Part shown: positions 34,029 to 44,400 of the stretch, piece by piece
Numbering within the stretch: position 1 is the stretch's first letter
Layout of the letters: each line of letters opens with the position of its first letter
Assembly (NCBI GenBank): GCA_002067705.1
Contig: MVRL01000087.1
Coordinates: 1 to 64,000, forward strand
DNA: 64,000 bases
Origin: Methanosaeta sp. PtaU1.Bin112
GTDB lineage: Archaea; Halobacteriota; Methanosarcinia; Methanotrichales; Methanotrichaceae
Reading direction: 5' to 3'
The notes under the pieces: generated by a model
Told to the model about the DNA's origin: nothing
Database searches by the model: none
What the model saw: only the letters and a program-made list of their open reading frames with translations
Translations under genes and position numbers: made by a program

Positions 34029-34988
34029 TCAATCTTTCTTTGAAGAAAGGGCGAATTCATCTACCTCAAGTCCCAGAATTCTCTCTGCTCCGCCAAATAC
34101 ATCTTTCGCAATCCAGGCGCATCCTCGGGCTGCAGCGCATCTCCCCAAGGGCCGGACCCACTGGCCCAGAAGCTTTGACACAAGCGGGCTTATCTCTGCG
34201 GCAGGGCTTCCCGCCAGGAATATCTCAGGGCCCGGCGTGCCCCAATCGCGGCAGAGCACCAGAAGGCCATTTATCTCCATGGCCGCGAACAGCGAAAGCG
34301 ATTCTAGGGCAAATCTCATCTCCTCAGGATGGCATTCATCGAGGCCCGCTCGCCCCATTTTGGAGAGAATGCCGCCCATGTTGAATGCCTGGTTGGCCGT
34401 CATCTTCCCTGAATCGACGTCCCTTATGGCAGCCACATCCAGCGGACCTTGCTTCAGTCCCGGAGCAAAAATGGGCGCATCGATCGCCCCGATTATCCTT
34501 CCCTCCAGCACGGCAAAAGTCACGGTATTAGAGCTGGCATCACAGATTATGAAGTTCCTGCTCTTTTCTCTAAATACGCCATAGGCCAGTCCCACCTTTT
34601 CCGGGCTCATGCCGTGGGAGAAGACCTTCAAGCGAGCATCGACATCGCTGGCGCGATGAATTCCAGGAAGAAGGATGGCGGGCCAGCCCGATGCTCTGAT
34701 GGCCTCGAAGACCTGTGTTCCACCGCCCACATGCTGGCCAGCTCCATCCTGCTGAATCAGGCCGCGATTTGGTGCGTCCTGCAGCCGGACAATTCTGGTG
34801 AGCCCATCACCCATAGAGTAGCTGAGGGCCACCAGATCGACGACATCGCTCCCCAAATTCCGGGCAATCAGCTCCACAATCTCCTCAGCAGAATGGCGGC
34901 TGGCCTCGCGCCTTCCAATCTCCCAGCAGCGTCCTTCTGGGGTTGCAAACCTTATGGCAGTGGTCCCGTGGTCTACTCCTATGAACAT
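34029..34988 (-). CDS. methanogenesis marker protein 12
   Basis: 319 residues from ATG 34988, where the conserved opening MFIGVDHGTTAIRF begins; an upstream extension to 35063 is unlikely. This is an ASKHA-fold (acetate/sugar kinase, Hsp70, actin) protein: phosphate-1 loop VDHGTTAIRF, later NFIICDASSNTVTFA and EIFLAGSPA. The family (TIGR03281) occurs in methanogens and has no known reaction; ATP-dependent maturation of a methanogenesis enzyme or cofactor is a common suggestion. Likely operon with the small protein at 33758. Confidence 0.9.
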   Translation of the reverse strand: MFIGVDHGTTAIRFATPEGRCWEIGRREASRHSAEEIVELIARNLGSDVVDLVALSYSMGDGLTRIVRLQDAPNRGLIQQDGAGQHVGGGTQVFEAIRASGWPAILLPGIHRASDVDARLKVFSHGMSPEKVGLAYGVFREKSRNFIICDASSNTVTFAVLEGRIIGAIDAPIFAPGLKQGPLDVAAIRDVDSGKMTANQAFNMGGILSKMGRAGLDECHPEEMRFALESLSLFAAMEINGLLVLCRDWGTPGPEIFLAGSPAAEISPLVSKLLGQWVRPLGRCAAARGCAWIAKDVFGGAERILGLEVDEFALSSKKD

Positions 34989-35092
34989 GTTATCAGCCCT
35001 ATGCCTGGATTGCAGGCAGCAGGGTATTTTTGCTGGACCTTGATAAGTGTATCCGGCCTTCAAAGATCAGGATAAAGGCCGCGGAAAAAGGA

Positions 35093-35800
35093 TTATCGAT
35101 GAGATCTTATTCCGATCTTGCTCTTTATCAACTGGATGTCCTTTTCCATTCTTCTTAACCGTTCTGTATTGCTGTAATGCACTACATCATCGCGCAGGTC
35201 CCGGATCTCGGCAGTTGTTTCCTCTTGCTTGTCGAGCATCTGATCCAGCTTGCCGATCGTTTTATCTTGCTTGCCGATCATTTGATCTTGCTTGTCAAGC
35301 ATTTGATCTTGTTTGTCGAGCATTTGATCTTGCTTGTCGAGCATTTGATCTTGCTTGTCGAGCATTTGATCTTGCTTGTCGAGCATTTGATCTTGCTTGT
35401 CGAGCATCTGATCCAGCTTGCCGATCGTTTTATCTTGCTTGTCAAGCATTTTATCCATTTTATTATTCATGCCTAAAAGAAGTGGAATTGCTTTATTAAG
35501 CTGAGCTGAGGTATTTATTGCAGCATACGATTCCAGAGGCATAACCGTCCCTGCATACTCTTCGGTCTCGATGCGATCTACCTCTGCAAACTCGGGCTTA
35601 TTCGACCGTACCTGTTCAATAAAGCAGGAAATGCACTCTTCATCCCCTTCTGCCTGGATAACGACGGTTGAGTTTTTTCCTTCAATGCGGTTTCCTGCAT
35701 AAAATCCTTGCAGTCCGGCATTCATAGCAACATCAGTAAGCCAAGGTCGATAGCCTACACCATGCACTTTGCAGCCAGTAATTTTAATCTTTACCTTCAT
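35093..35800 (-). CDS. acylphosphatase-domain protein with heptad-repeat coiled-coil tail
   Basis: About 235 residues from ATG 35800, where the acylphosphatase fold begins; the longer frame overlaps cofD and is unlikely. Residues 1-90 match acylphosphatase: GCKVHGVGYRPWL contains the catalytic Arg, and GFYAGNRIEG the catalytic Asn. After a linker, residues about 115-195 are heptads of the type M-L-D-K-Q-D-Q, six of them identical, flanked by T-I-G-K-L-D-Q variants on both sides, then a charged tail. The tail should form a long coiled-coil that multimerises or displays the domain. It lies 50 nt after cofD on the same strand. Role unknown. Confidence 0.78.
   Translation of the reverse strand: MKVKIKITGCKVHGVGYRPWLTDVAMNAGLQGFYAGNRIEGKNSTVVIQAEGDEECISCFIEQVRSNKPEFAEVDRIETEEYAGTVMPLESYAAINTSAQLNKAIPLLLGMNNKMDKMLDKQDKTIGKLDQMLDKQDQMLDKQDQMLDKQDQMLDKQDQMLDKQDQMLDKQDQMIGKQDKTIGKLDQMLDKQEETTAEIRDLRDDVVHYSNTERLRRMEKDIQLIKSKIGIRSHR
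35217..35463. repeat. 21-bp tandem repeat array inside the acylphosphatase gene
   Basis: Successive 21-bp units (plus strand pattern TTGATCTTGCTTGTCGAGCA) run through the region. The central six are nearly identical, differing at single bases, while the flanking ones are diverged. Each unit encodes one heptad, so copy number changes keep the reading frame. Confidence 0.9.
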
Positions 35801-35850
35801 GTCAAACTGCCTTATTTTGCTTGGGACATATATATCGATTTCCGCGTCCC

Positions 35851-36744
35851 TCAATATGTCTCGATGATTTCCAGCAACTTTTTCGCCACCTTGCCGCTCT
35901 CTCTCTTCGTTCTCATGAGGGTGCTCATGCGCTGGCATTCTCCCCTGTAGCTGCTCTTTTTGTCTACTATGAATAGGTCCACCTTGCCGAGAATAGATCG
36001 CACCCCCTCATCATTGGCTGGGACGCGCATCGCGGACATGAATTTGGCAGCAGGGCCGCTCACCGGCCTATCTCCGATAAACGGACTCATAGCCACAACT
36101 CTTTTTCCCTGCAATCTCTCTCGCACACCCTGCAGCGCCAAGATAGGGCCGATGCTGGTCACGGGATTGCTGGGGCCGATGAGAATTGTGTCCTCCTTTT
36201 CCAGGATATCCAGAAAAGCTTGACAGGGAAGGGCAGCGTCCATTCCGGCGAAAATTATGGAGCGAACCTCGGGCAATCCCCGCCGACCTACCCAGAATTC
36301 CTGGAAGTGCATAACTCCCTCCGGGGTGGAAACTACGGTAGAGACAATATCATCGGTCATGGGAACGACCCGCTGAGCAACTCCCAGGGATTCGGCCAGC
36401 GCCTGGGTGGCATGACTGAGTTTAACCCCCCGGCGAAGCAGCTCAGAGCGAAAGATATGAACTGCTCTATCTTTGTCACCCACCAGCAGCTTCTCTTTGA
36501 TGCCCATCATTATAAGAAAATCATGAGTTAGAGTTTTATCGCCCTTAATGCCCCACATCTTTTTATCATCGATTATGTCTGCCAGGGTGTAAATCACTGA
36601 ATCAATATCCGGCGAGATGTAATTTCCGGAGATCCAAAGGTCTTCTGCCGTATTAACGACTACCGAAAGCTCCTCTGGTCTCAAAAGCTCCTTTAGACCC
36701 ATAAGGAGCTTGGGAGTGCCCGTGCCACCGCTTAATATCAGCAT
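35851..36744 (-). CDS. cofD: 2-phospho-L-lactate transferase
   Basis: 297 residues. CofD transfers the lactyl- (or PEP-derived) phosphate moiety from the activated guanylyl donor to Fo, giving F420-0, the redox cofactor of methanogenesis. Signatures: LSGGTGTPKLLMGL at the N-terminus, VVNTAEDLWISGNYISPD (about 28-45), and ILIGPSNPVTSIGPIL (about 187-202). It is third in the operon sepF-zpr1-cofD, 1 nt after zpr1. The product feeds Mtd at 46 kb, which uses F420. Confidence 0.96.
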   Translation of the reverse strand: MLILSGGTGTPKLLMGLKELLRPEELSVVVNTAEDLWISGNYISPDIDSVIYTLADIIDDKKMWGIKGDKTLTHDFLIMMGIKEKLLVGDKDRAVHIFRSELLRRGVKLSHATQALAESLGVAQRVVPMTDDIVSTVVSTPEGVMHFQEFWVGRRGLPEVRSIIFAGMDAALPCQAFLDILEKEDTILIGPSNPVTSIGPILALQGVRERLQGKRVVAMSPFIGDRPVSGPAAKFMSAMRVPANDEGVRSILGKVDLFIVDKKSSYRGECQRMSTLMRTKRESGKVAKKLLEIIETY

Positions 36745-36745
36745 T

Positions 36746-37315
36746 TCAAACGTCCACTATAATCATGCCCGTCTTGAGATGGGCCAGATCTTCGTCCGAG
36801 ATGGTTGATTTAACTGCTCTCTCGCAGTCAATGGCGCTGTTTCCCAGGGGATCTTCGAGAATGAGGGTCAGAGGAAACCGTCCTTCCCTGGCAAGTGTGA
36901 TCTTTTCCAGGATTTCTTCTCCTCTCCGAACGCTTTCCTGGCTTTCTGCCTCTCTGGCCGATCGGGTGGCAAAGCTTACCACACTTTCGATTCGTTCCAG
37001 GACACCCTCGACATTGGTTACGTAAGAATCCGATGAGAATCCCGGCTCGACGTCTACGCCAATCTCAGGAATGCGTAGGGTACCACTGGATGAACGAATC
37101 ACTCTCGCGTCCAGATCCTCAATGCTCGTCACCGGCATGGTGAATCGCACCGGCTCCTTTTGCGTAAGGAGAATGGTATCGTTGTGTCTGAAGCCGCAGC
37201 AACAGACCCCGGCTATCACCAGGGCTTCTCCAAAATGGGGTATGTTCACAGTCTCCCAACTGAATTGCATCTCTTCTGAGCAGATGGGGCATCTCGCGCT
37301 GGTTGTAAGATTCAA
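36746..37315 (-). CDS. ZPR1-related zinc-finger protein
   Basis: 189 residues with one ZPR1 zinc finger: CPICSEEM near residue 9 and VCCCGFR near residue 38 provide the four Cys. The downstream ZPR1 beta-domain is visible as FTMPVTSIEDLDARVIRSSS and TLILEDPLGNSAI. Archaeal members are single-unit versions of eukaryotic ZPR1, which binds or chaperones translation elongation factor 1A. The start overlaps the sepF stop by 4 nt. Confidence 0.9.
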   Translation of the reverse strand: MNLTTSARCPICSEEMQFSWETVNIPHFGEALVIAGVCCCGFRHNDTILLTQKEPVRFTMPVTSIEDLDARVIRSSSGTLRIPEIGVDVEPGFSSDSYVTNVEGVLERIESVVSFATRSAREAESQESVRRGEEILEKITLAREGRFPLTLILEDPLGNSAIDCERAVKSTISDEDLAHLKTGMIIVDV

Positions 37316-37677
37316 TCTTTGCTCCCGACCACCATCTCGCGGTCGATCTTTATGCCGCTAGGCACCAGAATTATCAGATCATCACCAACTCCGGCAATAT
37401 CTCCGGTGACATCATCGATTGCTTTTTTAAGTTCACCAATGGCTCGATCCAGAGCGGCCTTATCCCTCTTCAGACCGGCAATATCCACCAGGATTATATT
37501 GCCAGCGTAAATTTCCTGTTTAATCTCGGGAAGGACTTCAACCCTTCCCAGCTCAGCTACCCTTAAAATGATATCCGGGGAGCCGCTGCCTTCCTCGAAC
37601 TGACCAAGATCGACCTCGGAGTAATCCTGCTCCTTAGACTTTCCAATGAGCTTGAGCTTTTCTAGGAATCCTGCCAT
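37312..37677 (-). CDS. sepF: SepF-like cell division protein
   Basis: 121 residues. The C-terminal DUF552 core (YAGNIILVDIAGLKRDKAAL, AIDDVTGDIAGVGDDLIILV) is preceded by an amphipathic N-terminus (MAGFLEKLKLIGKS) expected to bind membrane. In archaea SepF anchors FtsZ to the membrane at the division site. First gene of an operon with zpr1 and cofD; AATATAAATATA about 35 nt upstream is a probable TATA region. Confidence 0.92.
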   Translation of the reverse strand: MAGFLEKLKLIGKSKEQDYSEVDLGQFEEGSGSPDIILRVAELGRVEVLPEIKQEIYAGNIILVDIAGLKRDKAALDRAIGELKKAIDDVTGDIAGVGDDLIILVPSGIKIDREMVVGSKD

Positions 37678-37728
37678 CTATAAACCCCGCTAGCAAAATG
37701 TGTATTATTATATTTATATTTAACGCAG

Positions 37729-37908
37729 TTACATGTTCACGAGTTTCAACCCCACGAAGCCCATGATCACCATGAAGAGCAGGACGATCAAAGCAAAGCT
37801 CGAAGACCTCATCTCGGCAGGAAGGACCATTTGTGCTCCTAAAATGAGGACGATCATCAGAAATACCAGACCAGTACTCAATCCAATCTCAAGCCAATTC
37901 TTCTTCAC
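37729..37908 (-). CDS. 59-residue two-helix membrane protein
   Basis: GTG start at 37908 with GGAGGA 10 nt upstream, located in the last codons of cofG; stop TAA at 37729. Two hydrophobic helices (GLSTGLVFLMIVLILGAQMV and SFALIVLLFMVIMGFVGLKL) are separated by a short polar loop (LPAEMRSS). The N-terminus is basic (MKKNWLE). It lies 20 nt after cofG and is probably part of the egsA-UPF0179-cofG transcript. Family not recognised. Confidence 0.65.
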   Translation of the reverse strand: MKKNWLEIGLSTGLVFLMIVLILGAQMVLPAEMRSSSFALIVLLFMVIMGFVGLKLVNM

Positions 37909-37928
37909 AAGACTATTGTCCTCCTGCC

Positions 37929-38930
37929 TTAGAAGATATACTTTTTCGCCCGAAGGCCGTCCTCCCCGGCCAGATCACTCACCAGCGATCGGGTTCTATG
38001 GCCATGCCATCCCAGGGCAATAAAGCGAGGATAAACAGGCAGCCTCTCTCTCAAGCTATAGGCCGAGAGATGGTGGTGCAGCTCTTCTTCGCCCGGCCAG
38101 GGACAATCTGGATTAATGCTGTCAACGGTAACAGAGCTAATTCCTCCAAGATCATTCGCACCTACATCAAGAGCTGGTCGCGGGTCCACCAGGTTTGGGG
38201 GGATTTGGATCGCTACCTCAGCAGGAAGAATCCTGCGCGCCATCTCCACCGTTCTGCACAGGTCCGCCATTTCCGGTCGGGGCGCATTCTCCAGATCAGT
38301 CCCAAGCTTCGGATCCAGAGGCTGGATGATAACCTCCTGAATATGGCCATAGTTACTTTGCAGCTGGGCAATCTTGCCGACCGCTTCTATCCGGTCCTGC
38401 ATGCTCTCTCCAATGCCGATCAGTATGCCGGTGGTAAAGGGAATGCGAAGCTCTCCGGTCATGGCTATGTACTGCAGCCTATGGTCCGGTCTCTTGCCGG
38501 GCGATCTTTCGTGGGCCTGCACCTTTGCAGTCGTCTCCAGCATCAGTCCCATTGAGGCATTAAAGGGCTGCAAGCGCAGTAGGTCCTCCCGATCCAGCAG
38601 GCCGGCATTGCAGTGCGGCAGGAGACCGAACTCTATGGCCATCTCGCATAGCTCGACCATGTAGTCGATCAAATCTGCGATGCCAGATTTTGCCTGCAGA
38701 CGATCAAAGCCAGCAACAGCCCAGGGCGCTTCACCCATAGTAAAAAGCGCCTCACTGCATCCGTGAAGAGCTCCCTGTTCCAATAAACGCGCTGCTTCGG
38801 TTCTGGAGAGCAGATGGGCATCTCGAAGTTCCTTTCGAAAAGAGCAATATCCGCAGCGATTCCTGCAGAGATCTGTCACGGGAAGAAAAATATTTTTAGA
38901 GTAGGTAACTGTTTTCATCATTGGATTCAT
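37929..38930 (-). CDS. cofG: FO synthase subunit 1 (7,8-didemethyl-8-hydroxy-5-deazariboflavin synthase)
   Basis: 333-residue radical SAM enzyme. With CofH it makes FO, the deazaflavin chromophore of F420. The 4Fe-4S motif is CRNRCGYC (about 22-29), followed by [14 protein letters not shown]. Other family blocks are [20 protein letters not shown] and [13 protein letters not shown]. It is 3 nt after the UPF0179 gene. CofH is not in this window. Together with cofD 2 kb away this makes a partial F420 gene neighbourhood. Confidence 0.95.
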
Positions 38931-41461: not shown

Positions 41462-44400
41462 ATGCGGATTGCCTTTGTATGCGAGTCTGTATGCCCAATC
41501 GCCGCTTTATTAGTAATGATTTTCTATGCCAATAATGTCTTTGCCGATACGTCAAATGATGAGAATGTAAGCATGCAACACGATTCTAAAATTATCAATC
41601 CGATCGCCTGGAATGATGAAGTTGACGAGATCAATAGCTCAGAGGCGGTCTCATCAATTCATCCAATGCCACTTACCTTGAAGGAGTATCGTTGGAATGG
41701 AATGTCTGGCTCTATAAACTCCAGCGCCTCGATGTTCAAAGACGATCAAGGCCAAACCCACATCCTGGCACGAGGTCCAGATAATGAGCTTTGGGATAAC
41801 GTTGATGGAGTCTGGCAAGGGGTGGGAGGAGCTATAGCCTCTGACCCTTGCGCAGTCAAAGATAATCTGGGCGTGGTCCATATTTTTGCCATCGGGAGTG
41901 ATAGCGCTCTCTTTGATTGGGTATCGGGCACTGGTTGGGTAAATTTGGGTGGCCATCTCACCTCTAATCCAAGCGCGGCTCTGTCTCCGGATGGGCATAT
42001 CAAGATAGCAGCAAAGAGCAGTGACGATGAATTATTGATAAAAGATCTGACCACGGGTGAATGGTCGAATCTTGGCGGCAAAATTGAGTCGAATCCCCAG
42101 CTGATTTTCGATATTCAGGGCAAAATGCATGTTCTGGCACAAGGGAGGAGCGGAGCCCTCTGGGACAACGTAGACGGCACCTGGCAAAACCATTCGGGGA
42201 TGGTTGCATCTGATCCCCGGCCGATCATTAACCCATTTAATCCGGGAGTCATTTTAACCTCTGTTCGTGGTGAGAATGGTGCTCTGTGGATCAATTCTCT
42301 GGATACCGCATCGGGCATCTCTACATGGACCGATCTTGGCGGCACGATTGTGGGAGTTCCATCACCTTCTGTAGATACTGATGGTGTGCTACATAACTTT
42401 GTTCGGGGCAGTGATGGCGGGCTATGGGATAATGCGGACGGCAGCTGGTATAGCCTGGGCGGTTCTATTATCTCGGATCCAAGCGTCTTTCGGGATAGAG
42501 ACGGAAAGCTGCATGTTTCAGCTGCAGGCCAAGGCAATGAATTGTGGATCAACACCGTGGGAATGGGCAGGACGCCCACAACTTTGGTAGGCTCATTTGC
42601 CTGTGACGAAAATAAAATACAGTCCGCAATAGACGCAATGAGTTCAGGCGGAATAATAAAGATACTCAGTGGCAGCTACCCTGAGAATGTGGTCCTCAAC
42701 AAAAACGTGACTATTATCGGAATGGGCAATCCTACCGTAACAAGCTTTACGCTCAATGCGATATTAGGAATCGGCTCCAGCGGAATAACTGCTCCCATAG
42801 TGGTCGTGAACGCCGGATCAAGCATCCTGCAGGCAATTGAGCTGGCAAGTTCAGGCGCGTCGATAAGGATAAACGGGGCAGTAGGATACATTTACAGCGA
42901 TGATTTAACCCAGAGCTTTTATGAAAAAGGCATTACCTTAAATGGTGTCGATAATCCGGAAACGAAGAGCATTTCCCTGGACCAGGATGTAGCTGGAAAG
43001 ATCAGTGGCATTGTAGCCAATACTGTAAACGTGAATCCCGGTGCCAGCATATTGCAGGCGATCGATCTGGCAAACACGGGCGCGCTAGTCAATGTAAACG
43101 GAGCTTTTGGGTTTACTTACAGCGATGACCTAGACCAGAGCTTCTATGCTAAAGGAATCGTCCTTATCGGCATCAATAATCCCGTCATCAACAGCTTCAC
43201 ACTGACTCAAGACGCAGCTGGAACGATTAGTGGCATTGTATCCAATACAGTAAACGTAAATCCTGATGCCAGGATACTGCAAGCAATTGAACTGGCAAAT
43301 GCTGGCGGGTCCATCAACATAAATGGAGCGGAAGGATATACCTATAGCGATGACCTCACCCAGGGCTTCTATAAAAAAAACATCTCTCTGGCTGGATTCA
43401 ATAATCCCGTCATCAACAGCTTCACATTGACACAGGACATAGCTGGGAAGATCTGTGGCATTGCGGTCAATACTGTAAATGTGAATCCTAATGCCAGCAT
43501 CCTGCAGGCAATTGAACTAGCAAACACGGGCGCGCAAGTTATGGTAAACGGTGAAGTGGGATACACTTACAACGATGATCTAACCCAGGAATTCTATGCA
43601 AGAGGCATCACCTTAATTGGCATCGATAACCCGGAAACGAAGAGCATTACCCTTGACCAGGACGTAGATGGAAGGATCCGCGGCATTGCAGCCAATACAT
43701 TAAACGTTAATGCAAATGCAAAGATACTGCAGGCAATTGAACTGGCAAATACATGCGCGAAAATTATAGTAAATGGGTCCGCGGGATATGCTTACGGCGA
43801 TGACCTGGACCAGAGCTTTAATGCAAAAGGCATCGTGCTTATTGGTGTAAATGATCCCGTTATCAACAGCTTCACGCTGACTCAGGACGTAGCTGGAACG
43901 ATCAGTGGCATTGCAGCCAATACTGTAAATGTGAATCCTGATGCCAGAATACTGCAGGCAATTGATCTGGCAAATGCTGGCGGGTCGGTCAATATAAACG
44001 GGGCAGTTGGATACACTTACGACGACGATCTTGTCCAGGGCTTTTATGCTAAAGGCATCACCTTGATCGGCATCAATAATCCGGTGACAAAGAGCATCTC
44101 ACTGGACCAGGATGTAGCTGGAAAGATCAATGGCATTGCAGCCAATACTGTAAATGTGAATCCTGATGCCAGCATCCTGCAGGCAATCGATCTGGCAAAT
44201 GCTGGCGGGTCGGTCAATGTAAACGGGGCAGAAGGATACACGTACAGCGATGACCTGACCCAGAGCTTCTATGCAAAAGGTATCGCCTTAACAGGATTTG
44301 ATAGCCCGGTGACAAAGAGCATCTCACTGGACCAGGATGTAGCCGGAAAGATCAGTGGCATAAATGCCAATGTAGCAAATGTTCTCAATCCCAATGCAAA

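Follow-up and report, generated by a model that had tools for sequence, protein, structure and literature searches.

On the reverse strand of the window, which here means the whole 64,000-nucleotide stretch of Methanosaeta sp. PtaU1.Bin112 DNA that was analysed (contig MVRL01000087.1), an open frame encodes a protein with an acylphosphatase (AcP) head, a conserved linker and a stalk of helical heptads (Table 1), and we use "AcP-stalk" as a working name for the family to which it belongs. The start codon, an ATG at 35800, coincides with a Met1 that is invariant in an alignment of 43 family members. The gene adjoins cofD and is co-directional with it, within an F420/methanogenesis cluster (34029-38930) that extends from the methanogenesis marker 12 gene (MMP12) to cofG (37929-38930) and also holds a ZPR1 zinc finger protein gene (36746-37315). 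The real start of MMP12 is probably about 24 codons internal to its ORF.

Table 1. Coordinates of the AcP-stalk gene, its parts and its neighbours in the window
Feature	Coordinates	Strand	Basis
AcP-stalk gene, 235 residues plus stop	35093..35800	-	Open frame (ORF translation); PF00708; head under purifying selection
Acylphosphatase-fold head, residues 1-85, including Arg18 and Asn37	35546..35800	-	Profile, alignment, AlphaFold, Foldseek
Conserved linker and helix start, residues 86-113 (ends QLNKAIPLLLGMNNK)	35462..35545	-	Family-wide conservation
Stalk of 12 heptads, residues 114-197	35210..35461	-	Heptad listing; TRF array 35223-35455
Strictly perfect portion of the 21-bp array, 95 bp	35313..35407	-	Sequence comparison
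C-terminal helix region, residues 198-235 (EIRDLRDD..MEKDIQLIKSKIG)	35096..35209	-	Lys226 conservation; AlphaFold
Putative promoter-like element GGAAATCGATATATAT, 28-43 nt upstream of the ATG	35828..35843	-	Sequence only
cofD neighbour, 2-phospho-L-lactate transferase (outside the system)	35851..36744	-	TIGR01819, 344.9 bits
MMP12 neighbour (outside the system)	34029..35063	-	TIGR03281 (289.2 bits), aligned from residue 27 onward

Residues 4-83 of the head match PF00708 (E = 1.2e-13, 51.6 bits against a curated cut-off of 22.5), a profile that all 43 aligned members match at E ≤ 0.001. Modelled as a monomer from the 43-sequence family alignment, the protein was predicted by AlphaFold (mean pLDDT 92) to consist of an AcP fold followed by a single continuous helix at residues 89-228, with pLDDT dropping from about residue 200 onward. 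The predicted order of elements in the head, strand-helix-strand-strand-helix-strand, is that of the ferredoxin-like AcP fold, and a Foldseek search of the PDB with this model ranked acylphosphatases and HypF N-terminal domains first. Acylphosphatases such as PDB 3br8 and 2bjd share the fold of the head with TM-scores of about 0.65-0.78, according to target length, and their Arg and Asn are kept in it at 28-32% identity; known members are mostly single domains of about 90 residues, whereas the window protein adds a long helical stalk and one residue in each of the two active-site loops. The N-terminal AcP-like domain of HypF (PDB 3vth and 1gxu) gave the best phmmer match (E = 1.2e-5) and has a similar loop (V-H/Q-G-V-G-Y/F-R-P), but the other HypF domains are absent and a helical stalk stands in their place; the full-length HypF model TIGR00143 scored 31.8 bits against a cut-off of 466.1. 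The cut-off of none of the NCBIfam acylphosphatase equivalogs was reached, the best scoring 32.2 bits where 106 are required.

A sequence-only reading of this DNA had described an acylphosphatase fused to a heptad-repeat stalk, with the catalytic Arg and Asn in place, and the profile, the model and the family alignment bear out both points. Arg18 and Asn37 are each present in 91 of 93 distinct heads, so the loss of catalytic residues in relatives that the same reading named as evidence against itself was not seen, while Gly9, His13 and Pro69 occur in all 93. Because Asn37 lies outside the patterns used in the search, of which one included Arg18 and His13, its conservation was not produced by the search; copies from the window genome that were found without patterns also keep Arg18 and His13, the exception being Arg18 in a degenerate copy (C181). 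The loops of canonical acylphosphatases read G-x-V-Q-G-V-x-F-R and G-W-V-x-N. This spacing is not present in the window head, His replaces Gln, and position 14, which is Gly in canonical enzymes, is Asp in 63, Glu in 15 and Gly in 12 of the 93 heads. Heads of related genes are under purifying selection, with dN/dS mostly in the range 0.15-0.25; the values come from simple counting, and synonymous sites approach saturation for distant pairs. The head is a conserved, selected and divergent AcP domain. The retention of Arg18 and Asn37 suggests that the phosphate site is still in use, and catalysis by the head is plausible from its residues; given the loop insertions and the prevalence of Asp or Glu at the loop glycine, catalysis may also have been lost. 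These same changes would suit a head that serves as a non-enzymatic ligand-sensing or protein-binding domain, with the stalk making the protein a scaffold or adaptor and the copies specialised for different partners, as would the numerous diverged copies and the presence in the window genome of C138, a canonical standalone acylphosphatase (motifs VQGVFYR and GWVRN) that already covers the supply of enzyme. Such a role sits poorly with the near-universal Arg18 and Asn37, and we regard it as a real but minor possibility.

The stalk is encoded by an array with a period of 21 bp and 11.1 copies (TRF score 326), which amounts to 12 heptads at the protein level. The sequence-only reading had counted about ten, and its six identical heptads were confirmed (in the DQMLDKQ register). 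Its description of the array stands, except that the 21-bp repeat it called perfect is strictly perfect over only about 4.5 copies. A two-heptad block at residues 121-134 recurs exactly at 177-190, near the opposite ends of the array, indicating that block duplication has also contributed. On either side of the stalk, Lys103 of the linker is kept in 90 of the 93 heads and Lys226 of the C-terminal helix is nearly invariant among the 43 members. The KQDQMLD heptad places its two hydrophobic residues, Met and Leu, next to each other and off the usual a/d spacing that is present in sister copies with KEMKGDI heptads; as a coiled coil, the window stalk is thus less typical than those KEMKGDI arrays. 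On the model, the stalk may nonetheless form a coiled coil, through which the protein would oligomerize.

Stalk length differs between species by whole heptads. Compared with the 12 of the window gene, related genes of the window type have six (G001, G024 and G006) or seven (G007), and two measured chimeras have six and five; the differences are always in frame, as expected from the proposal that the stalk can change length without a frame break. The window gene is a recently lengthened member of its family. Across the main subfamily, the part of the tail that lies between two anchors is 45-139 residues long, and the lengths modulo 7 concentrate in a few classes, a distribution that fits heptads plus an occasional 17-residue module, the module being our own reading of the sequences.

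A profile search of the window genome recovered 22 PF00708 domains, most with helical tails. About a dozen intact genes share the divergent head type of the window gene, several others are stalked with more canonical heads, and several are fragments or degenerate copies. Of 156 genomes searched in the class, this one has the most PF00708 domains (21 in that search), and a congener represented by two contigs at 99% completeness (G004) contains 14 such domains, so the expansion is not merely a MAG artefact; the sampled genomes of one large family within the class, which we take to be Methanosarcinaceae, mostly encode 1-3 PF00708 genes. Named relatives are chiefly Methanothrix MAGs, with some Candidatus Methanoperedens and one titled Methanosuratincola, the few record titles that give other taxa being open to mis-binning, and strong matches were also obtained in several further families of the phylum. 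The family extends across Methanotrichaceae and into parts of Halobacteriota. Most copies sit amid unrelated housekeeping genes, and no operon partner was seen to recur apart from those in local synteny groups, of which prs-AcP-aroC is one. A virus or plasmid origin was set aside, as no relatives were found in viral contigs or phages and the sole plasmid match was a HypF.

With some 20 relatives in the same genome, the gene is not the protein without obvious precedent that it was first taken for. A further precedent is the Red Borg subfam0779, a PF00708 acylphosphatase with the 7-residue aaTR KLVEGQN (Schoelmerich et al. 2023, PMC9879509, Table 2), which, as described in that table, shares both the domain and a 7-residue tandem repeat with the window protein; its host, Methanoperedens, is related at the level of the class. 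Borg aaTRs are presented in that paper as commonly disordered and virtually missing from host genomes, whereas the repeats of the window family are chromosomal and predicted to be helical. That table line was the sole direct precedent in a literature search of mostly open-access journal papers, which returned no description of the AcP-stalk family.

The position of the gene beside cofD had also prompted the suggestion of a link to CofD, for which adjacency in other Methanothrix would be the check; the linkage proved not to be conserved. Among close relatives, the gene at the cofD-MMP12 junction is intact, chimeric (three relatives), frameshifted or decayed (two relatives), or absent in at least nine, namely G007, G018 and at least seven more. 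The junctions of G020 and G010 carry a different head, with 45-46% DNA identity to that of G001, on a tail 93-96% identical to the G001 tail; after this comes a window-type head that is truncated or lacks its tail. The chimera of G008 is the same as that of G020, and the foreign heads on near-identical tails in these three relatives indicate that copies recombine. Two broken heads are found at the cofD locus of G021 and a tail remnant only in G019, which the CofD tree places as sister to the window genome. In G006 the copy that follows cofD is intact, and MMP12 is missing downstream. A role in coenzyme F420 synthesis, in which the protein would handle a phosphorylated intermediate together with CofD, is recommended by the adjacent, co-directional cofD and the nearby cofG. 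The range of junction states leads us to reject a conserved partnership, the decay in G019 already arguing against it, and with paralogues scattered elsewhere such a role is hardly credible; the position beside cofD looks accidental. The decayed remnant in G019 (C376, L144:1461-1620 after orientation) holds a short tandem repeat of its own, in TCGAGAAGAATAGAAAAG units, and repeats may have gone on expanding there during decay.

Pairs of copies within the window genome share only about 33-135 bp of flank outside the gene. Many Methanothrix paralogues carry the promoter-like consensus GGAAACAAYCAAATAG about 34 nt before the ATG, whereas the element of the window copy is of the ordinary TATA-like kind. 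The sequence GAAANNNYCAAATAG has nine exact genomic sites, seven of them upstream of family genes; we did not adopt a family-wide regulon, as inheritance of the promoters accounts for these sites just as well as co-regulation does. Of 86 family genes, 15 have flanking direct repeats, compared with 7 of 386 controls (Fisher p = 1.6e-7), a value that is indicative only, with controls drawn from the same loci after exclusion of CRISPR-array ORFs, family loci partly related to one another and the 15 cases hand-picked. On inspection, the flanks showed paralogues in tandem or partly duplicated neighbouring genes (L099, L114, L055/L061, L060 and L095), so that tandem duplication and loss explains the repeats more simply than insertion with a long target-site duplication, which was rejected. 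At L095:4776-5744, and also at L060, L061 and L055, fragments of neighbouring genes (the 5' end of aroC, a hydrolase-like gene and the 3' end of the gene upstream) occur in duplicate on either side of the AcP-stalk gene and are probably relics of tandem duplication. If the flanking repeats are taken as such relics, they would suit a weakly selected family that proliferates by tandem duplication, dispersal and decay, with stalk length drifting by slippage to little functional effect; the mixture of whole, chimeric, truncated and remnant copies that close relatives show at a single locus and the gene fragments elsewhere in the genome point the same way. Purifying selection on the heads, nearly invariant key residues and the retention of a promoter-like element by many copies make this explanation improbable.

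We instead favour, with moderate confidence, an expanded family with fast turnover that carries AcP-fold heads on rods of evolvable length and probably binds or hydrolyses a phosphate or acyl-phosphate. The gene would be one of many dispersed single genes of a lineage-expanded family in Halobacteriota, built to a common plan of AcP-fold head, conserved linker, stalk of helical heptad modules and, in most cases, a conserved helix at the C-terminus. Each protein would contribute to a short rod, presumably oligomeric, that presents several heads, and these most likely still bind, and may hydrolyse, their ligand. Changes in stalk length would come from 21-bp units and larger blocks being duplicated in frame, with heads and tails swapped between copies by recombination. 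Of this picture, the fold, the retained residues, the whole-heptad length differences, the chimeric genes and the turnover beside cofD come directly from computation, whereas oligomer, ligand and catalysis are inferences. Few enzymes are simpler than acylphosphatases, whose physiological role is a matter of debate. A lineage with about 10-20 of them on variable rods offers natural variation with which to ask what the domain binds and why it has multiplied, as well as a clear archaeal case of head-tail shuffling and in-frame heptad duplication.

A few copies lie in CRISPR-cas neighbourhoods. In G000, the C128 gene (L168:37-3789) has a CRISPR array of 15 repeats on one side and a cas4-cas1 fusion on the other; the order of array, AcP-stalk gene and cas4-cas1 is repeated in another genome (L108:128-4480). 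C157 (G000, L165:99-5672) adjoins type I-G (I-U) cas3g and cas8g, C155 is near a gene for an Mrr-type nuclease, and lone C128-type CRISPR repeats flank both sides of C121 (G000, L172:1480-1995), with no array near. The link of these copies to CRISPR-cas is a lead only; should the association hold, it would give some copies a testable cellular context. Such neighbourhoods would be expected if the family took part in conflicts with mobile elements, for instance as a CRISPR-cas accessory, which would also explain its diversification and turnover. With the majority of copies among unrelated housekeeping genes and no match to the head in a PADLOC search, we think this quite improbable. More speculatively, and rather unlikely in our view, AcP-stalk may be an archaeal diversity-generating multigene system in which heptad arrays, as recombination handles, shuffle heads and rods and tune rod length, with a subset tied to CRISPR-cas by function or spread with CRISPR repeats. 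A degenerate CRISPR repeat also directly follows the AcP-stalk gene in the arrangement of C128 and L108, the direct repeat flanking C121 measures about 99 bp, and a degenerate C128-type repeat follows C117 (G000, L169:10008-10661), again with no array near. Elsewhere in the window, repeats of 225/450 bp form a long array at positions 42821-44361 (TRF score 1489) that probably encodes a repetitive protein.
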